Origin: Pseudomonas sp. N3-W
GTDB taxonomy: Bacteria > Pseudomonadota > Gammaproteobacteria > Pseudomonadales > Pseudomonadaceae
Direction of reading: 5' to 3'
Length of the DNA: 64,000 bases
Assembly (NCBI RefSeq): GCF_024970185.1
Contig: NZ_CP103965.1
Coordinates: forward strand, 1,422,001-1,486,000
Shown: positions 19,816 to 58,943 of the stretch, one piece after another
Position numbering within the stretch: the first letter of the stretch is position 1
Layout: every line of letters begins with the position of its first letter
Program-made: the position numbers and the translations under genes
The notes under the pieces: generated by a model
What the model saw: the letters and a program-made list of their open reading frames with translations, nothing else
Databases searched by the model: none
Told to the model about the DNA's origin: nothing

Positions 19816-20775
19816 GGGATCTGCGGTGTACACAAAGACTGTGCATGCGCCGTTCAAATGTGGGAGCGAGCTTGCTCGCGATAGCGGCGTCACTGCCATA
19901 TGAATGTTGAATGTGCCGCCGTCATCGCGAGCAAGCTCGCTCCCACAGTGTCCCGTGGCGAATACAGACTTGCGTCCACCACCACCCCGGTAGGAGATTC
20001 CTGAGGGATCTGCGGTGTACACAAAGACTGTGCACAGCGCCGATCAAATGTGGGAGCGAGCTTGCTCGCGATAGCGGCGTCACTGCCACATGAATGTTGA
20101 ATGTGCCGCCGTCATCGCGAGCAAGCTCGCTCCCACAGTGTCCCGTGGTGAATACAGACTTGTGTTCACCGCCACCCGATAGGAGATTCCTGACGGATCT
20201 GCGGTGTACACAAAGACTGTGCACAGCGCCGATCAAATGTGGGAGCGAGCTTGCTCGCGATAGCGGCGTAACTGCCACATGAATGTTGAATGTGCCGCCG
20301 TCATCGCGAGCAAGCTCGCTCCCACAGTGTCCCATGGCGAATACAGACTTGTGTCCACCACCATCCCGGTAGGAGATTCCTGACGGATCTGCGGTGTACA
20401 CAAAGACTGTGCATAGCGCCGATCAAATGTGGGAGCGAGCTTGCTCGCGATAGCGGCGTAACTGCCACATGAATGTTGAATGTGCCGCCGTCATCGCGAA
20501 CAAGCTCGCTCCCACAGTGTCTCGTGGCGAATACAGACTTGTGTCCACGACCACCCGGTAGGAGATTCCTGACGGATCTGCGGTGTACACAAAGACTGTG
20601 CATAGCGCCGATCAAATGTGGGAGCGAGCTTGCTCGCGATAGCGGCGTAACTGCCACATGAATGTTGAATGTGCCGCCGTCATCGCGAACAAGCTCGCTC
20701 CCACAGTGTCCCGTGGTGAATACAGATGTTGTGTCCACCATCCACCCTGTGGGAGCGAGCTTGCTCGCGAAGGCG
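19816..20775. repeat. Tandem array of five ~189-bp REP-doublet units
   Basis: The motif GGATCTGCGGTGTACACAAA recurs at 19817, 20006, 20195, 20385 and 20574, giving periods of 189, 189, 190 and 189 bp. Each unit holds a TGTGGGAGCGAGCTTGCTCG REP, a spacer with GAATGTTGAATGTG, an inverted REP and a roughly 65-bp linker. A sixth, single REP closes the array at about 20749-20772. Shared variants (GTCACTGCC in units 1-2, GTAACTGCC in units 3-5; GAACAAG in units 4-5) show stepwise duplication. Frames through it are repeat artefacts. Confidence 0.95.
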
Positions 20776-48310: not shown

Positions 48311-48619
48311 ATGACTCAAGAACCTAGCACCCTCTATGCCAAGCTGCTTGGTGAGACCGCATCTATTAGCTGGAAGGAACTGGAACCGTTCTTCGCCAAG
48401 GGTGCCCTATTGTGGGTCGACCCAGCCCTGGATTTGATCGCAGCCGCAGAGGCCGTGGCTCAGGATGAAGGGGAGAAAGTCGCTGCCTGGCTGGCTGCCG
48501 ACAAGGTCGCCAAGCTCTCTGAAACGCGGGCGCTGGATCTTTTCGAGCGCGATCCGGAGCTGTGGGCAGTGGTGGTTTCGCCGTGGATTCTGATCCAGGA
48601 AAGGGCGGCCGCCAAATAG
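48311..48619 (+). CDS. DUF2288 family protein
   Basis: 102 residues. 'LYAKLLGETASISWKELEPFFAKGALLWVDPALDLIAAAEAVAQD' is the DUF2288 pattern. A small, soluble, helical protein of unknown role, widespread in gamma-proteobacteria and cyanobacteria as I recall. Single gene; AGGACCC ribosome site. Confidence 0.85.
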   Translation: MTQEPSTLYAKLLGETASISWKELEPFFAKGALLWVDPALDLIAAAEAVAQDEGEKVAAWLAADKVAKLSETRALDLFERDPELWAVVVSPWILIQERAAAK

Positions 48620-48927
48620 ACTGCGCTTTATTGGTGCGCGTGACTTGCCGGGAAAAGTGTGTAGCCGAGTAGCGTGATGGCATGTTGCCGTGGAGAAAGG
48701 CCACAGAAGGGTCTTGAAGAGGGTGACGTGCGCGTAACGGGAACAGTTTTGCGAGCTGCCTGCGGGCTGCTTAATTGTTTCTGGATGTTTGGATTTGTGG
48801 TGCAGGTGAGGCCGTCATCGCGAGCAAGCTCGCTCCCATATTTGACCGCACTCATTCAGACAGAATGCGGTCAACTGTGGGAGCGAGCCTGCTCGCGATT
48901 GGGGGCAACCCGGTCTCGCGCCGGACC
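48620..48927. other. Intergenic region with two REP units
   Basis: 308 bp. REP units at about 48811-48840 and 48875-48900 are arranged tail-outward, reverse unit first, the opposite order from the usual doublet. No gene recognised. Confidence 0.6.
48811..48900. repeat. Outward-facing REP pair
   Basis: An inverted unit (CGCGAGCAAGCTCGCTCCCA, about 48819-48838) comes first and a forward unit (TGTGGGAGCGAGCCTGCTCG, from 48877) second, spaced by about 35 bp. Confidence 0.8.
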
Positions 48928-51123
48928 TTAAAACGTCTTGCCAGTATGGTTATTCAACGAAATAACCTTGGTCTTGCCAATCCGGTGGCGGTAGATCTCG
49001 CGCAGGTACTTGATCGCCTTCTTCACGCAATCGCGCGACAGGCGAATGTCGTTGATCGAGACGAACTTGTCCTTGTCGTTGATCAGCTCGCGGTACTTCT
49101 TCTCGTACATCGGCTTGATCGCGTACCAGTTGGTGTCGAGGATTTTCGCCGGGTTTTCGAATTCGTTGAGCAGGTCGTCGATCAGGCCTTCGTCAAACTC
49201 TTCATTGATGATGAAGTCGAGGATCGAGTTGTCCAGGGTCTCGTCGAAGCGGTACGGATTTTTCGCAAAGCAGCGCTTGATGAAGGCCACGATCAGGGTC
49301 AGGAAGTCGTCCGACAGGCACGGGCTCTTGGCGATCAAGGTGGTCAGCGACAGGTTGGCCGAAGCGCCGATCACCAGTGCGTAACGCTTGAGCGTGGTGT
49401 TGGGGAACAGGCTGTTAAGGTGGGTCTTCAAGCGGTTGAGGTCCATGTAGGACAGCTTGTAGTCCTTGGGCAGCGAGACGATCGACACCACTGACGAGCA
49501 GTTCTTGAAGAAATGCAGGTCGTGCAACGCGGCCGCGTCGTAGCCGGAATTCTTGTACTGCTCAAGCGAGGCGCGATAGCGCTTGGACTCGATCGGCAGC
49601 AGGCTGATGCCTTCGATGGCCTGGGTGACCTTGTTGAAGTGCGGCAGGTCGATGGAGCGGAAGAACAGGTCGTCGATGTTCAGGCGCTGCGGCTCTTTGT
49701 CGAATACCTTGAACTTGTCGCTGCTCGGCGGCGGCGTTTCCGGCACCACGGATTCGGCATAGGCAATCGCCACCGGGCCGGCGAGGCTCATGAACAGATC
49801 GTTGGCGTCCAGGCGAATGGTTTCGCCGATGTCGATACCGGCACGACGGAAATAGTTCTGGTCGTAGTCAGTGGTGACCGCCTGCGCCGTCAGAATGTTG
49901 AAGATCTGCTGCGAGATGTACTGGTTCGCGTGCTTTTCCATCGCGTTGACGTCGATGTTCTGAATGTTGCCGTCATCGCTTTCTTCGGCATAACGCATGA
50001 TGTCGTTGGAGATCAGCATCATCGCGTTCCATGGACGAATACGGCCCATGACGCTGGCTTCGCTGCTGTCTTCATTGTCGAAGTTGTAGGAAAAGTCCCA
50101 TTCTTCCGACAGGTATTTGCACAGCAGGCGACCGGCGTTGATGTGCAGCGCCTCGGACATTTCGCTGCGGTGATCGGAAATGTTCGGCAGTACACAGATG
50201 CCGCTGGTGAAGATCGGCTCGAAGACGAAGGAGTGGCCGCTCTTGCTGTCGTGCTCGTCCACCGGTTTGGTGTCGAACGTCTTGTTCATGTACGAGTGCT
50301 GCTGGGCCAGGCCGAATTCCGAGGCCATGCCCGAGCCCGTTCCGCCGCCGGCACTGAAGATCGAGAAATACAGGCGCGACTGGTTGGCCTTGATGCCGCA
50401 GCTGTCGATCAGGTACGAGTGAATCATTTTCCAGTCCGGGCTGGAGAAACGCTGGGTGTCCTTGTTCAGGATGATCTTGGCCAGGTACTGGCCGAGGATC
50501 GGCGCGTTACCGGCGCCACCGGCATGGACTTCCGACAAGTCCATGATTTTCATTTTGCTGTAGTCGCGCAAAAAGCCGCTTTTTTCGCCCTTGCGCGAGA
50601 AGCGGATGCGCCCGGCGATGTCCTTGTCCAGGTCGCCCAGCATCACCAGCGGCTCGACCAGGAACACCGGTTTGGTCGCCTTGTTCGGGCCCAGGCGCAG
50701 GTTGTTGCGGATCCACTGTGCCGGGCTGTAGCCCTTTTCGGCGTAGCGTTTGTCCGGCGACAGGCGATCTTCGTTGTTGAATTCGTTGAGGTAGAACTTG
50801 CGGGCGTTGTACACCAACTCCGCCACGTCCAGCGCAATGTTGGAGCCGCAACGGCCCAGGCCGATCAGGCACACCGAGGGGAATTCCTGCTCGTTGTGCT
50901 GTTCGCTGTCGCCTTCCTGATGCGGTGGGCGCGGGAACACCATGTCGCGCAGGCCGTCGAGGTTATCGAGGATGCGGTCGGTATTGGTTTCGGTGAAGTA
51001 CAGGTATTGCTGGGTTGCCAGCGGGCGCGATGCAATCAATGGCTTTGACGGGGCGGGGCTGTTGGCCGCGGGGCTCAGGGTCAGATCGGATACCGCAGTG
51101 GCCGGATTGTTCTTGGAAGTCAT
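48928..51123 (-). CDS. Tubulin/FtsZ-like GTPase superfamily protein
   Basis: 731 residues, far longer than FtsZ. A disordered N-terminus (1-35, Ser/Pro/Ala-rich) precedes a GTPase-like core. The T1-like loop is 'LIGLGRCGSN' (87-95), the T3-like loop is 'GGAGNAP' near 202-208, and the tubulin signature 'AGGGTGSG' is at 258-265, all in the order of FtsZ/tubulin. I could not place the catalytic NxDxxD/E loop with confidence. The C-terminal half (about 430-731) lacks recognisable motifs and could be a specific interaction region. No signal peptide or clear membrane segment. It fits large tubulin-like families predicted to remodel membranes. Neighbour upstream is an MHYT-GGDEF-EAL gene on the same strand. 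Confidence 0.8.
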   Translation of the reverse strand: MTSKNNPATAVSDLTLSPAANSPAPSKPLIASRPLATQQYLYFTETNTDRILDNLDGLRDMVFPRPPHQEGDSEQHNEQEFPSVCLIGLGRCGSNIALDVAELVYNARKFYLNEFNNEDRLSPDKRYAEKGYSPAQWIRNNLRLGPNKATKPVFLVEPLVMLGDLDKDIAGRIRFSRKGEKSGFLRDYSKMKIMDLSEVHAGGAGNAPILGQYLAKIILNKDTQRFSSPDWKMIHSYLIDSCGIKANQSRLYFSIFSAGGGTGSGMASEFGLAQQHSYMNKTFDTKPVDEHDSKSGHSFVFEPIFTSGICVLPNISDHRSEMSEALHINAGRLLCKYLSEEWDFSYNFDNEDSSEASVMGRIRPWNAMMLISNDIMRYAEESDDGNIQNIDVNAMEKHANQYISQQIFNILTAQAVTTDYDQNYFRRAGIDIGETIRLDANDLFMSLAGPVAIAYAESVVPETPPPSSDKFKVFDKEPQRLNIDDLFFRSIDLPHFNKVTQAIEGISLLPIESKRYRASLEQYKNSGYDAAALHDLHFFKNCSSVVSIVSLPKDYKLSYMDLNRLKTHLNSLFPNTTLKRYALVIGASANLSLTTLIAKSPCLSDDFLTLIVAFIKRCFAKNPYRFDETLDNSILDFIINEEFDEGLIDDLLNEFENPAKILDTNWYAIKPMYEKKYRELINDKDKFVSINDIRLSRDCVKKAIKYLREIYRHRIGKTKVISLNNHTGKTF

Positions 51124-51399: not shown

Positions 51400-53682
51400 T
51401 CAGCGGATTGGACGCACAACCGATCCGCCTCCATGGGGGCCAGGGCTTTTAGGAAAAGGATCCGGCGACGTTAGTGCCGTTATACCGCGAGCCAGACTCA
51501 GAGGGCTGACCGAGTGACTGTGTTTGCGTTGGTTGATTTCGTGTAGCACCGGCAGTAACTCCTCCAGTGACACCGGCCGACTGAGCAGATAACCCTGGAC
51601 GAAATCGCAACCGTGGCGCTCCAGGAATTCGTATTGCTCCAGGGTTTCGACGCCTTCGGTAACCACCTGCAAATGCAGGGTGTGGGCCATGACAATGATT
51701 GCCTGGACGATCTCCATGTCCTGGGTGGCCTTGGGGATATCCTGGATGAATGAACGGTCGATTTTCAGCGTATTGAGTGGCAGGCGCTTGAGATAGGCCA
51801 GGGACGAATATCCGGTGCCGAAGTCGTCGATCGACAGGGAAACTCCGAGGGCGCGGATCTGCCGCAACAGCACCAGCGTATTGGCGATGTTGCCCATCAG
51901 CGCGTTTTCGGTCACTTCCAGTTCCAGCCGCTGGGGCGCGACGCCGGCCAGGCGCAGGGCATGTTCGATTTCGTCGGCCAGCTCTTCCCGGGCCAGGTTC
52001 AGCGGCGAACAGTTCACGGCGATTTTCAGCTCCTCGCATCCCTGTCGGGAGAGTGTGCCCAAGTCCTCGCAGGCTTTGCGCAGCACCCAGTTGTCGAGCT
52101 CGGCAATCAGGCCGTTGTTTTCGGCGATGCTGATGAAACGGTCCGGGGGAAGCAGGCCAAGGACCGGATGCTGCCAGCGGATCAGGGCTTCCAGCTTGGT
52201 GACCTGCCCGGTTTTGAGGTCGTAGATCGGCTGGTAGTAGAGCATCAGCCCGGCTTCCTCGCGCAGGGCGTAGCGCAATTCTTCTTCGAGTTGCAGTTCC
52301 AGTGTGGCGCGGGTTTTCATGTTGGAGCTGAAAAAATGCAAGCTGTTACGTCCGCTGCCCTTGGACTGGTACAGCGCCAGATCGGCGTTTTTCAGCAGGT
52401 CCTCGCACGTGTTGCCGTCTTCGGGGAACAGGCTGATGCCGATGCTGGTGGTCATGACCATGCGCCGCCCGGCCAACTCGATCGGCTCTTTCATTTTCAA
52501 CATGATGCGCTGGGCCATGTGTCGCGCTTCCTCGCGCTCGCGCAGGCCGATAAGAATGCAGAACTCGTCGCCGCCGAACCGCGCCACGACATCGTCGTGG
52601 CTGCGTACCGACCCCTTGATGTGATGGGCGATGACTTTGAGCAATTCGTCGCCAGCGTCGTGGCCAAGGCTGTCATTGATTCGTTTGAAGTGATCGATGT
52701 CGAGGAACATCACGGCCAGCATGCCGCCTTCGGTGGTTTTCTCGATGAGCTTTTCGGCAAAGATCTGGTTGAAACCCCGACGATTGATCAGATTGGTCAG
52801 GGCGTCGTAGTGCGCCACCTGTTGCAGCGACATGCGCGCCTGATCAAGCTGGCTGAGCAGGGCATTGACCCGGCGCAGGTCGCGCTCCTTGTTTTGCAGC
52901 TTTTTGTCGGCCAGCGCTGCGCTGATCACGCTGCCGATGATCAGCAGCATGATGACCGCCACCGTCAGCCCCAACTGCAGGTGATTGTTGGCGCTTGGCG
53001 CGATCAGCACGCTACCGACAGGCACCACCAGGTTGAGCGCGGCCATGGCGGTGAAGTGCATGCCGATGATGCCCGCGCCCAGCACCAGGCTGGTGGCGTA
53101 TTTGAGCAATTGATGGAACATGCCGCTGCCGTCGCGAAGGTGCCGGGCAATCGACAACGTGGCCAGGCTGGCAGCGATGCCGATCAGGATCGACAGGACG
53201 AACAACCCGGGTTGGTAATAAGCCTTGGCACTGGATTGCAGGGCGGCCATGCCGACGTAGTGCATGCTGGCGATGCCAAAGCCGATCCAGACCGACGTCC
53301 GGACGTACTGCCAGAGGGTATGCCGGGGCTGGCCAAGGCTATACATCGCCAGCAGCGAAGCGCCGGAGGCGAAGAATAGCGAGAGCAAAATGGTCGGGAG
53401 TCTGTAGTGGACCTCCAGGGGCACCTGAAAGGCCAGCATGCCGATGAAATGCATGGTCCAGAGGCCACCGGCCAGGCATGCGGCGCCGACCCAGCGCCAC
53501 AGTCGCTGCGAGGTGGGGTTGTCTGCATGCCCGACACGCTCGGCGGTGTCCAGGGTCGCAAAACTGGCCGCGCAGGCCACCAGGTAGGCGGCCAGCACCA
53601 AAAACGGATCATGTGTGCAGTTGAGTATGACCTGCCCGCTGCGCGGCAACTCGGTAATAAACTGCAAACCAAGCCAATCCAT
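51400..53682 (-). CDS. MHYT-GGDEF-EAL cyclic-di-GMP signalling protein
   Basis: 760 residues. N-terminal seven-helix MHYT sensor with three motifs: 'MHFIGM' (77-82), 'MHYVGM' (140-145) and 'MHFTAM' (208-213), proposed to bind copper and sense O2, CO or NO. Diguanylate cyclase domain with intact 'GGDEF' (370-374); the residues at the expected RxxD inhibitory-site spacing read SHDD, so product inhibition may be lost. C-terminal EAL domain with 'EALIRW' (498-) and 'DDFGTGYSSL', apparently active. It resembles the MucR/YkoW architecture. Located 276 bp upstream of the tubulin-like gene. Confidence 0.93.
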   Translation of the reverse strand: MDWLGLQFITELPRSGQVILNCTHDPFLVLAAYLVACAASFATLDTAERVGHADNPTSQRLWRWVGAACLAGGLWTMHFIGMLAFQVPLEVHYRLPTILLSLFFASGASLLAMYSLGQPRHTLWQYVRTSVWIGFGIASMHYVGMAALQSSAKAYYQPGLFVLSILIGIAASLATLSIARHLRDGSGMFHQLLKYATSLVLGAGIIGMHFTAMAALNLVVPVGSVLIAPSANNHLQLGLTVAVIMLLIIGSVISAALADKKLQNKERDLRRVNALLSQLDQARMSLQQVAHYDALTNLINRRGFNQIFAEKLIEKTTEGGMLAVMFLDIDHFKRINDSLGHDAGDELLKVIAHHIKGSVRSHDDVVARFGGDEFCILIGLREREEARHMAQRIMLKMKEPIELAGRRMVMTTSIGISLFPEDGNTCEDLLKNADLALYQSKGSGRNSLHFFSSNMKTRATLELQLEEELRYALREEAGLMLYYQPIYDLKTGQVTKLEALIRWQHPVLGLLPPDRFISIAENNGLIAELDNWVLRKACEDLGTLSRQGCEELKIAVNCSPLNLAREELADEIEHALRLAGVAPQRLELEVTENALMGNIANTLVLLRQIRALGVSLSIDDFGTGYSSLAYLKRLPLNTLKIDRSFIQDIPKATQDMEIVQAIIVMAHTLHLQVVTEGVETLEQYEFLERHGCDFVQGYLLSRPVSLEELLPVLHEINQRKHSHSVSPLSLARGITALTSPDPFPKSPGPHGGGSVVRPIR

Positions 53683-53830: not shown

Positions 53831-54196
53831 TCAGGCGCTTTGTTCGTAAGGCATGTCGAAGGCTGGTTCCAGTGGTGGCAACCCGAACGCCGCTCGGGCT
53901 GCATCGCAATCGACGTTGGCTTCGCCATGCTCCCAGGATGCTTCGAACTCCCGGCAAGTGCTGGAGCGTTGCGCGTAGATCGAGCATTGCACGGTACTGC
54001 CCACTTCCCCTTTCAGGCTGATGCACCGGGTGGGCTTGCAGTCGGTGCCGAGCATCGCCACGCGGCTGGGACTGATGGAGGCGACCAGCTCATCGGGCAC
54101 CGTTCCCCCGGAAGAGGCGCATTCACCCCAGAAAAAAGACACGCGAAAATGAGAACAGCAGGCACCGCAATTCAGACACGGACTGGCTTCGGACAT
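53831..54196 (-). CDS. YkgJ family cysteine-cluster protein
   Basis: 121 residues. Cys motif 'CLNCGACCSHF' at the N-terminus, then 'CKPTRC' and 'CSIYAQRSSTCREF'. This CxxCxxC...C pattern defines the YkgJ/UPF0153 family, thought to bind zinc or an iron-sulfur cluster. Function unknown. Single gene. Confidence 0.88.
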   Translation of the reverse strand: MSEASPCLNCGACCSHFRVSFFWGECASSGGTVPDELVASISPSRVAMLGTDCKPTRCISLKGEVGSTVQCSIYAQRSSTCREFEASWEHGEANVDCDAARAAFGLPPLEPAFDMPYEQSA

Positions 54197-56096: not shown

Positions 56097-58943
56097 TTAA
56101 CCCGCCACCAGCACCCGAATCGCTTCCAGTCGCAGTGCAGCCTTGTCGAGCATGGCCAGGCCTTGCTCGCGCTGGTTGCGCAGGGCCACCAGTTCGCTGT
56201 CGCGCACGGTCGGGTTGACCGCTTGCAACGCGGTCAGGCGCGCCAGTTCTTCGTCGGTATCGGCTGCCAGGCGGCGTTTCGCCTCGGCCACACGCTCGGC
56301 GTGACGCGGGGTGATTTTCTCTTCGCCAGCGTTGATCCGTGGCGTCAGCTGGTCGCGCTGGGCCTGGATGAACTTGTTGGCGCTGGCGCGTGGCACGCTT
56401 TCCAACTGGTCGTTCAGGGTCTCGAACGAGACGCGGCCCGACAAGTCGTTGCCGTTGGCATCGAGCAGGCAGCGCAACGCCGCTGGCGGCAGGTAACGGC
56501 CCAGTTGCAGCGAGCGCGGGGCAACCACTTCGCTGACGTAGAGCAGTTCCAGCAACACGGTACCGGGTTTCAGCGCCTTGTTCTTGATCAGCGCCACGGC
56601 GGTGTTGCCCATCGAGCCGGACAGCACCAGGTCCATGCCGCCCTGCACCATCGGGTGTTCCCAGGTGATGAACTGCATGTCTTCGCGAGACAGCGCCTGG
56701 TTGCGGTCGTAGGTGATGGTCACGCCTTCGTCGTCACCCAGCGGGAAGCTGGCGTCGAGCATTTTTTCGCTCGGCTTGAGGATCAGGGCGTTTTCCGAAT
56801 GGTCTTCGCTGTCGATCCCGAAGGCGTCGAACAGGGTTTCCATGTAGATCGGCAGCGCGAACTGATCGTCTTGCTCAAGGACGTCCTCGACCAGTTGATC
56901 ACCTTCGCCGGCGCCGCCGGAGTTGAGTTCCAGCAGGCGGTCGCGGCCAGTGTGCAGCTCGGCTTCCAAGCGCTCACGCTCGGCGCGGGCCTCATCGATC
57001 AGCGCTTGCCACTCGCCGTCGTCGGCGTTTTCCAGCAGCGGCAGCAGCCGAGGGCCGAATTGATGCTGCAGGGCGTTGCCGGTCGGGCAGGTATTGAGGA
57101 AGGCGTTCAGCGCTTCGTGATACCACTGGAACAGGCGCTCTTGCGGGCTGGTTTCCAGGTACGGTACGTGCACTTCGATGATGTGCTTCTGGCCGATTCG
57201 GTCCAGGCGACCGATGCGCTGTTCCAGCAGGTCCGGGTGCGACGGCAGATCGAACAGCACCAGATGGTGCGAGAACTGGAAGTTGCGGCCTTCACTGCCG
57301 ATTTCCGAGCAGATCAGCACTTGTGCGCCAAACTCTTCGTCGGCGAAGTAGGCGGCGGCGCGGTCACGTTCGAGGATGTTCATGCCCTCGTGGAACACCG
57401 TGGCCGGAATGCCGGAGCGCACGCGCAGGGCGTCTTCCAGGTCCATGGCGGTTTCGGCGTGGGCGCAGATCACCAGCACTTTGGTGCGTTTGAGCATTTT
57501 CAGCTGATCGATCAGCCACTCGACGCGCGGGTCGAACTTCCACCAGCGCTCTTCTTCGTTGGCGTCCGGCTGGGCCTGGAAGCTGACTTCCGGGTACAGC
57601 TCGGCGTGATCGGCCAACGGCAATTCGAGGTACTCGTCGGGGCAGGGCAGCGGGTACGGGTGCAGCTTGCGCTCCGGGAAACCCTGCACGGCGGCGCGGG
57701 TATTACGGAACAGCACGCGGCCGGTGCCGTGGCGGTCCAGAAGCTCGCGCACCAGACGGGCGCTGGCTTCGGCGTCGCCATCGTTGACGGCGGTCAGCAG
57801 TGCTTCGCCTTCGTTGCCAAGGAAACCCTGAATGGTCTTGTGCGCCGCCGGGGACAGGCGGCCCTTGTCCAGCAGCTCCTGCACGGCTTCGGCCACCGGG
57901 CGATAGTTTTCGCTCTCGGCGCGGAAGGCGGCCAGGTCATGGAAACGGTTCGGGTCGAGCAGGCGCAGACGGGCAAAGTGGCTGTCCTGGCCCAGTTGTT
58001 CCGGGGTGGCGGTCAGCAGCAACACGCCGGGAATGACTTCGGCCAGTTGCTCAACCAGCGAGTATTCCGGGCTGGCCTTGTCTTCGTGCCACACCAGGTG
58101 GTGGGCCTCGTCGACGACCAACAAGTCCCAGCCTGCGGCGAACAGTGCATCCTGGGCCTTCTCGTCGTCCACCAGCCATTCCAGAGCCACCAGCGCGAGC
58201 TGGGTGTCTTCGAACGGGTTGGCGGCATCGCTTTCAATGAAGCGTTCTTCGTCGAACAGCGCGACCTGCAGGTTGAAGCGGCGGCGCATTTCCACCAGCC
58301 ACTGGTGTTGCAGGTTTTCCGGCACCAGGATCAGCACACGGTTGGCGCGACCGGAGAGCAGTTGGCGATGGATCACCAGACCGGCTTCGATGGTTTTACC
58401 CAGGCCTACTTCGTCCGCCAGCAGAACCCGTGGCGCGATACGGTCGGCGACTTCACGGGCGATGTGCAGTTGGTGCGCGATCGGCTGTGCACGCACGCCG
58501 CCCAGGCCCCAGAGTGCGGACTGCAGCTGACGGCTGGTGTGTTCCAGGGTGTGATAACGCAGGGAGAACCAGGCCAGAGGGTCGATCTGGCCGGCGAACA
58601 GACGGTCGCTGGCCAGACGGAACTGAATGAAGTTCGACAGCTGGGTTTCCGGCAGGGTGACCACTTCGTTTTGCGCGTTGAGGCCGTGGTAGACCAGCAG
58701 GCCATCGACGTCGTCGACTTCCTGTACGGTCAGTTTCCAGCCTTCGAAGTGAGTGATTGAATCACCCGGGGAGAACCGCACGCGTGTGAGGGGCGCATTC
58801 CGTAGCGCGTACTGGCGAGTGTCGCCAGTGGCCGGGTAGAGCACGGTCAACAAGCGGCCGTCCTGTGCCAGAACGGTGCCTAAACCCAGCTCGGCTTCGC
58901 TGTCACTGATCCAGCGTTGCCCCGGTTGATACTGCTGCGCCAT
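56097..58943 (-). CDS. rapA: RNA polymerase-associated ATPase RapA (HepA)
   Basis: 948 residues, close to the E. coli length of 968. SWI2/SNF2 ATPase that recycles RNA polymerase. An N-terminal Tudor-like region ('[39 protein letters not shown]') is followed by Walker A 'DEVGLGKT' and Walker B '[10 protein letters not shown]'. Motif VI is '[11 protein letters not shown]'. Spacer and C-terminal domains follow. Single gene, transcribed alone with a strong terminator. Confidence 0.95.

Follow-up and report, generated by a model that had tools for sequence, protein, structure and literature searches.

A chromosomal tubulin/FtsZ-like protein of Pseudomonas sp. N3-W that fits the FtsZl2 family and is additional to division FtsZ

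The 731 aa protein and its loops

The DNA analysed here (the window) is a 64,000 nt stretch of the Pseudomonas sp. N3-W genome (NZ_CP103965.1, positions 1,422,001–1,486,000). Its minus strand has a gene for a tubulin/FtsZ-like protein of 731 amino acids (aa), which begins with ATG and is followed by a stop codon in open reading frame (ORF) analysis. A sequence-only reading of the window had given the same limits (Table 1). The protein fits the description of FtsZl2 (FtsZ-like 2), a family described from sequence by Makarova and Koonin in 2010 with PFL_1302 of P. fluorescens Pf-5 as its type (PMC2875224). The genome is a single contig of 6,674,931 bases and the gene is chromosomal at 1.47 Mb, a position that would be compatible with a locus numbered around 1302. 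It is present in one copy. The FtsZ of this genome lies elsewhere and is the single match to Pfam Tubulin (PF00091) over the cut-off (G000:C1:5490457-5490936). The 731 aa protein is additional to the division FtsZ of the same genome, as the sequence-only reading had proposed.

The ORF is a real coding sequence, since comparison with one close Pseudomonas copy shows a nonsynonymous divergence (pN) of 0.007 and a synonymous divergence (pS) of 0.275. The largest pN among seven comparisons is 0.126, with a pS of 0.403. Purifying selection acts on the gene. Many Pseudomonas copies likewise begin with an MTSK- or MTNK-like sequence, which supports the start codon. A promoter scan shows no signal above chance.

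Table 1. Features of the 731 aa protein and its neighbours, in window coordinates
Feature	Position	Strand	Basis
FtsZl2-family tubulin-like protein, 731 aa (by fit to description)	48928..51123	-	ORF, relatives, PMC2875224
Variable N-terminus, residues 1-40	51004..51123	-	
T1 loop GLGRCGSN, residues 88-95	50839..50862	-	aligned to FtsZ T1
T3 loop GGAGNAP, residues 202-208 (FtsZ GAGANP)	50500..50520	-	aligned to FtsZ T3
T4 signature AGGGTGSG, residues 258-265	50329..50352	-	conservation; Pfam Tubulin match
Candidate T6 LISND, residues 370-374 (own FtsZ TIPNE)	50002..50016	-	identical in 94/94; pairing by eye only
Candidate helix H7, residues 391-414	49882..49953	-	A399-N400 identical in 94/94; pairing by eye only
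Candidate T7 catalytic loop RLDANDL, residues 437-443 (FtsZ NVDFADV)	49795..49815	-	
Candidate FtsZ-type intermediate domain (H9-S8-H10-S9), residues 478-600	49324..49692	-	
Mostly helical C-terminal extension, residues 605-731	48931..49311	-	model; no relative recognised
102-aa ORF, downstream	48311-48619	+	
MHYT-GGDEF-EAL protein, upstream neighbour	51400-53682		
RapA, farther upstream	56097-58943		

Conservation was counted across 94 aligned family members; the 93 besides the query are 55–97% identical to it. Loops T1, T3 and T4 occur in the order of the tubulin/FtsZ superfamily and their residues are invariant in 94/94, except L89 (91), R91 (93) and A204 (80). The T4 signature is unchanged in all 94, agrees with the GGGTG(S/T)G signature of FtsZl2 and lies within the best Pfam Tubulin stretch of the protein (residues 253–268). 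The sequence-only reading had placed T3 and T4 correctly; it recognised the T1 motif but numbered it 89–95, one residue short. The spacing from T1 to T4 is approximately 170 residues, compared with approximately 86 in the genome's own FtsZ.

The same reading could not locate the NxDxxD/E loop (T7), for which there is now a candidate. Residues R437 to N441 are invariant in 94/94 and D442 is present in 93, with one gap. The candidate keeps both acidic residues (D439 and D442), but an invariant Arg437 replaces the Asn of FtsZ. By its conservation and alignment, RLDANDL is probably the T7 loop. A moderate model of residues 430–731 shows that the C-terminal region (444–731) mixes helices and strands, which fits the approximately 300 aa alpha/beta region of FtsZl2. 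The C-terminal extension has a basic amphipathic stretch near residues 693–715 by hydrophobic moment. The search for membrane anchors used hydropathy and hydrophobic moment only, and by hydropathy no stretch resembles a transmembrane segment, the highest 19-residue mean being 1.4.

Kinship with tubulin and FtsZ, and family assignment

A search with Pfam profiles, which the sequence-only reading had suggested as a check, gave a divided result. The 731 aa protein by itself scores 18.3 bits with PF00091 and 17.1 bits with Tubulin_2 (PF13809), below the curated cut-offs of 33 and 27. However, when 40 diverse family members were each scanned singly, PF00091 matched at E <= 0.1 in 35 (best 3.1e-5) and Tubulin_2 in 34 (best 0.0012). 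These matches make the resemblance of the family to tubulin more than a chance one.

The family was also aligned globally with a profile of 31 FtsZ sequences, with 300 column shuffles as control. In the T1–T4 stretch, T1, T3 and T4 land on their FtsZ counterparts and 2/300 shuffles are as good. The T4–T7 stretch, with hand-chosen segment ends, is equalled by 0/300 shuffles, a result partly owed to T4 itself. Its path pairs I436-R437-L438-D439 with I-N-V-D of FtsZ and D442 with the second acidic residue, and leaves LISND and the FtsZ T6 unpaired. The C-domain alone is without support in this alignment (81/300 shuffles as good). A local profile test finds the T4 signature alone, and beyond GGGTGSG the local signal is without significance.

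A profile search of the PDB gave no match, and fold searches with a poor full-length model show no tubulin among the matches listed. The C-terminal model does not include any loop from T1 to T6; FtsZ represents 9 of the 20 weak fold matches listed for it. At least three of the listed relatives carry the UniProt name 'Tubulin like' or 'Tubulin-like protein'. PADLOC, PHROGs and NCBIfam have no match for the 731 aa protein, and NCBIfam gives scattered weak matches only on the 40 members.

The assignment to FtsZl2 is made by fit to the published description, not by alignment to PFL_1302. The points in common are the species group, GGGTG(S/T)G, a C-terminal region of approximately 300 aa without known relatives, the lack of associated genes and the occurrence alongside FtsZ. 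Of the GTPase elements described for FtsZl2 (loops T1, T4, T6 and T7 and helix H7), T1 and T4 are clear here and the other three have candidates. The family is further described as without a coiled coil and as limited to Proteobacteria. By description no difference was found (identity to PFL_1302 was not measured). HHpred comparison of the type protein with PF00091 gave an E value of 0.0033, and a figure legend places Marinomonas sp. beside P. fluorescens, presumably for FtsZl2 (PMC2875224).

FtsZl1 (Tubulin_2) also belongs to the tubulin superfamily, is distinct from division FtsZ and carries a long addition at its C-terminus. FtsZl1 has a coiled coil, and its operons include vWA, GTPase and OmpA genes (PMC2875224). 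Unlike the FtsZl1 operons, the window has no vWA or OmpA among the nine other ORFs scanned. The sequence-only reading linked the protein to large families predicted to act in membrane remodelling. This does not apply here: that prediction was made for FtsZl1, and for FtsZl2 the same paper found 'no functional clues' (PMC2875224). The membrane-remodelling label of the literature is that of FtsZl1 with its operons, and FtsZl2 should not inherit it. Divergent FtsZ-like (Tubulin_2) sequences were excluded from the main trees in another study (PMC9871819).

Division FtsZ has T1, T3, T4 and probably T7 in common with the 731 aa protein. It differs in length (the FtsZ of this genome has 397 aa), and the 731 aa protein has a long T1–T4 insert, a helical extension and the change of the T7 Asn to Arg. 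TubZ and PhuZ are tubulin-like proteins other than FtsZ. They are plasmid and phage genes, and PhuZ is known from Pseudomonas phages. In contrast, the 731 aa gene is chromosomal; searches of 72,556 plasmid and 50,697 phage records gave no match to it, and no relative appeared among viral contigs. This agrees with the absence of phage or plasmid neighbours noted from the sequence.

FtsZl2 is a known but neglected family, and the observation of a tubulin-like protein at this locus is correct. No experimental study of FtsZl2 was found in the open-access literature, a search that did not cover subscription papers or preprints. This analysis adds a candidate T7 that carries an invariant Arg, empty sites that lack this one gene, and evidence that the gene has been transferred.

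Distribution, empty sites and horizontal transfer

Of 199 Pseudomonas genomes, 130 have an FtsZl2 match and 69 have none. Matches are found in 16/293 genomes of an order sample, 2/369 of a class sample and 9/398 of a phylum sample, one of the last in broken pieces; all counts include the own genome. A profile search with E up to 0.1 gave 6/369 class-sample genomes, but four of these matches are short, with E values of 0.002 or worse, and are taken as chance. Among the matches listed, the closest proteins are from Pseudomonas fluorescens and other Pseudomonas. At least 80 loci are named (80 of at least 445 confirmed). They are from Pseudomonas, Marinomonas (the second largest group), Rheinheimera, Alkalimonas, Arsukibacterium, Alishewanella, Paraglaciecola, Marinobacter, Cellvibrio, Colwellia and others. 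The named relatives look proteobacterial by name, both in these loci and in the best 120 of 666, 644 and 647 proteins. FtsZl2 and FtsZ occur together in the own genome and in 14/14 further carriers searched. A role for FtsZl2 in division was set aside because the own genome has FtsZ and 69 of the 199 Pseudomonas genomes have no FtsZl2 match.

The identities of FtsZl2 and FtsZ were compared between the own and 14 other genomes (105 pairs, frames read stop to stop). FtsZl2 identity is above FtsZ identity in 72/105 pairs, and the correlation is r 0.32. Paraglaciecola marina (Alteromonadales) and Marinomonas hwangdonensis (Oceanospirillales) have FtsZl2 sequences that are 86.1% identical and FtsZ sequences that are 57.5% identical. 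Between P. marina and two congeners the relation is reversed, with 69% for FtsZl2 and 89% for FtsZ. Unless a contig is misassigned, this reversal reflects horizontal transfer of FtsZl2.

Three other copies are decayed or partial. A genome of the same class (G925, L020-L022) has a decayed FtsZl2 copy whose pieces lie apart, interrupted by stops and by an unrelated ORF; the ORFs beside this copy are presumably succinyl-CoA ligase genes. One Pseudomonas copy (G068) is partial, with residues 386–730 only. In another (G076), residues 90–730 adjoin a 58%-identical stretch for residues 1–92.

The neighbours of the 731 aa gene are ordinary chromosomal genes. In addition to those in Table 1, the downstream side has an operon for a branched-chain amino acid ABC (ATP-binding cassette) transporter, which includes a LivK-type binding protein. 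FtsZl2 was recovered in 77 of 81 loci (the 80 named loci and the window), which carry 18 genus labels. No conserved operon partner was found in these loci, where ORFs were called roughly, longest first, so that small genes could be missed; the widest neighbour family spans 6 of the 18 labels. The MHYT-GGDEF-EAL cluster holds 15 of the 80 named loci, and those shown are Pseudomonas.

Empty sites were examined in 14 of the 69 Pseudomonas genomes without an FtsZl2 match. In all 14 the LivK-type gene has the 102-aa gene next to it. Within 1.5 kb of the 102-aa gene, on the side away from LivK, there is an MHYT gene in four, RapA in four, a major facilitator superfamily (MFS) gene in one and none of these in five; a 34% GGDEF match in G008 was left out of this count. 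The gap is approximately 340 bases in one FtsZl2-less genome. In carriers used as controls, FtsZl2 adjoins the 102-aa gene in G049 and G015 and is approximately 1.8 kb off in G014. Since the 14 FtsZl2-less genomes examined all keep the downstream 102-aa/LivK pair, FtsZl2 comes or goes alone and is gained or lost as a single gene at this site.

The FtsZl2 gene and the 102-aa gene are separated by a repetitive extragenic palindromic (REP) pair at positions 48820–48896, immediately downstream of the former. REP-type inverted pairs (GCGAGCAAGCTCGCTCCCACA) also form an array at positions 19859–20768 with a period of approximately 190 bases. The whole window has 27 REP matches with at most two mismatches, compared with 0.01 expected. 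A 121-aa ORF at positions 53831–54196 has a cysteine cluster, CLNCGACC, near its start and is without an NCBIfam or PADLOC family.

Possible function of FtsZl2

FtsZ and tubulin bind GTP with T1–T4 and T6–H7. Their subunits form head-to-tail stacks in which the active site of each is completed by the T7 acidic residues of its neighbour. FtsZl2 appears to have the parts for this mechanism, with one invariant change (Arg437); protofilaments are inferred from this. It is moderately probable that FtsZl2 is a soluble GTP-binding protein of the superfamily, most likely self-assembling, that functions as a one-gene module in a process other than cell division. It would bind GTP, and its subunits would stack head to tail into GTP-dependent protofilaments. 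T7 of one subunit, with Asp439, Asp442 and the invariant Arg437, may reach the GTP of the next and trigger hydrolysis, which would be altered relative to FtsZ. The helical C-terminal extension may face outward and offer a surface to partners or membrane. Filaments were predicted for FtsZl2 in its original description (PMC2875224).

The protein could instead be a GTP-binding switch or scaffold with a tubulin fold that does not polymerise. The T1–T4 spacing, twice that of FtsZ, and the 127-residue extension might block longitudinal contacts, and the replacement of the T7 Asn in 94/94 could mark a loss of assembly-coupled hydrolysis. Such a switch is somewhat unlikely, in that it would have no need of the candidate T7 acidic pair, which is kept apart from one alignment gap, and that characterised members of the superfamily form filaments (PMC2875224). 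A solitary defence or stress gene with a tubulin-like GTPase, patchily kept and passed between genera, would account for the presence in 130/199 Pseudomonas but 2/369 class-sample genomes, for the single-gene presence or absence and for the horizontal transfer. It is quite improbable, as there is no PADLOC match, no match in the plasmid and phage records searched and no viral-contig relative, and the sequence is highly conserved and not fast-changing. That glycine-rich loops resembling T1 and T4 lie on another nucleotide-binding fold is hardly credible: the lack of a significant local signal beyond GGGTGSG and the negative PDB and full-length model searches would agree with it, but the loop order, the Pfam Tubulin matches in 35/40 members, the T1–T4 and T4–T7 alignments, FtsZ in 9/20 weak matches of a model without loops T1 to T6 and the published HHpred result (PMC2875224) all stand against it.

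A more specific form of the self-assembling one-gene module is clearly unlikely but would have wider consequences. Here FtsZl2 would be a one-gene cytoskeletal module that passes between gammaproteobacterial orders, Arg437 would act as an arginine finger in trans on GTP bound by the adjacent subunit, and the extension would bind cargo or membrane. If this is true, the superfamily would have a novel catalytic loop in that of Arg437, with hydrolysis and filament turnover driven differently from FtsZ, tubulin and TubZ. Approximately two thirds of the sampled Pseudomonas genomes (130/199) carry a second tubulin-superfamily protein, mostly still annotated as hypothetical. As the gene is solitary and transferable, one deletion or one expressed protein may suffice to show whether there is a further bacterial cytomotive filament and what its role is.
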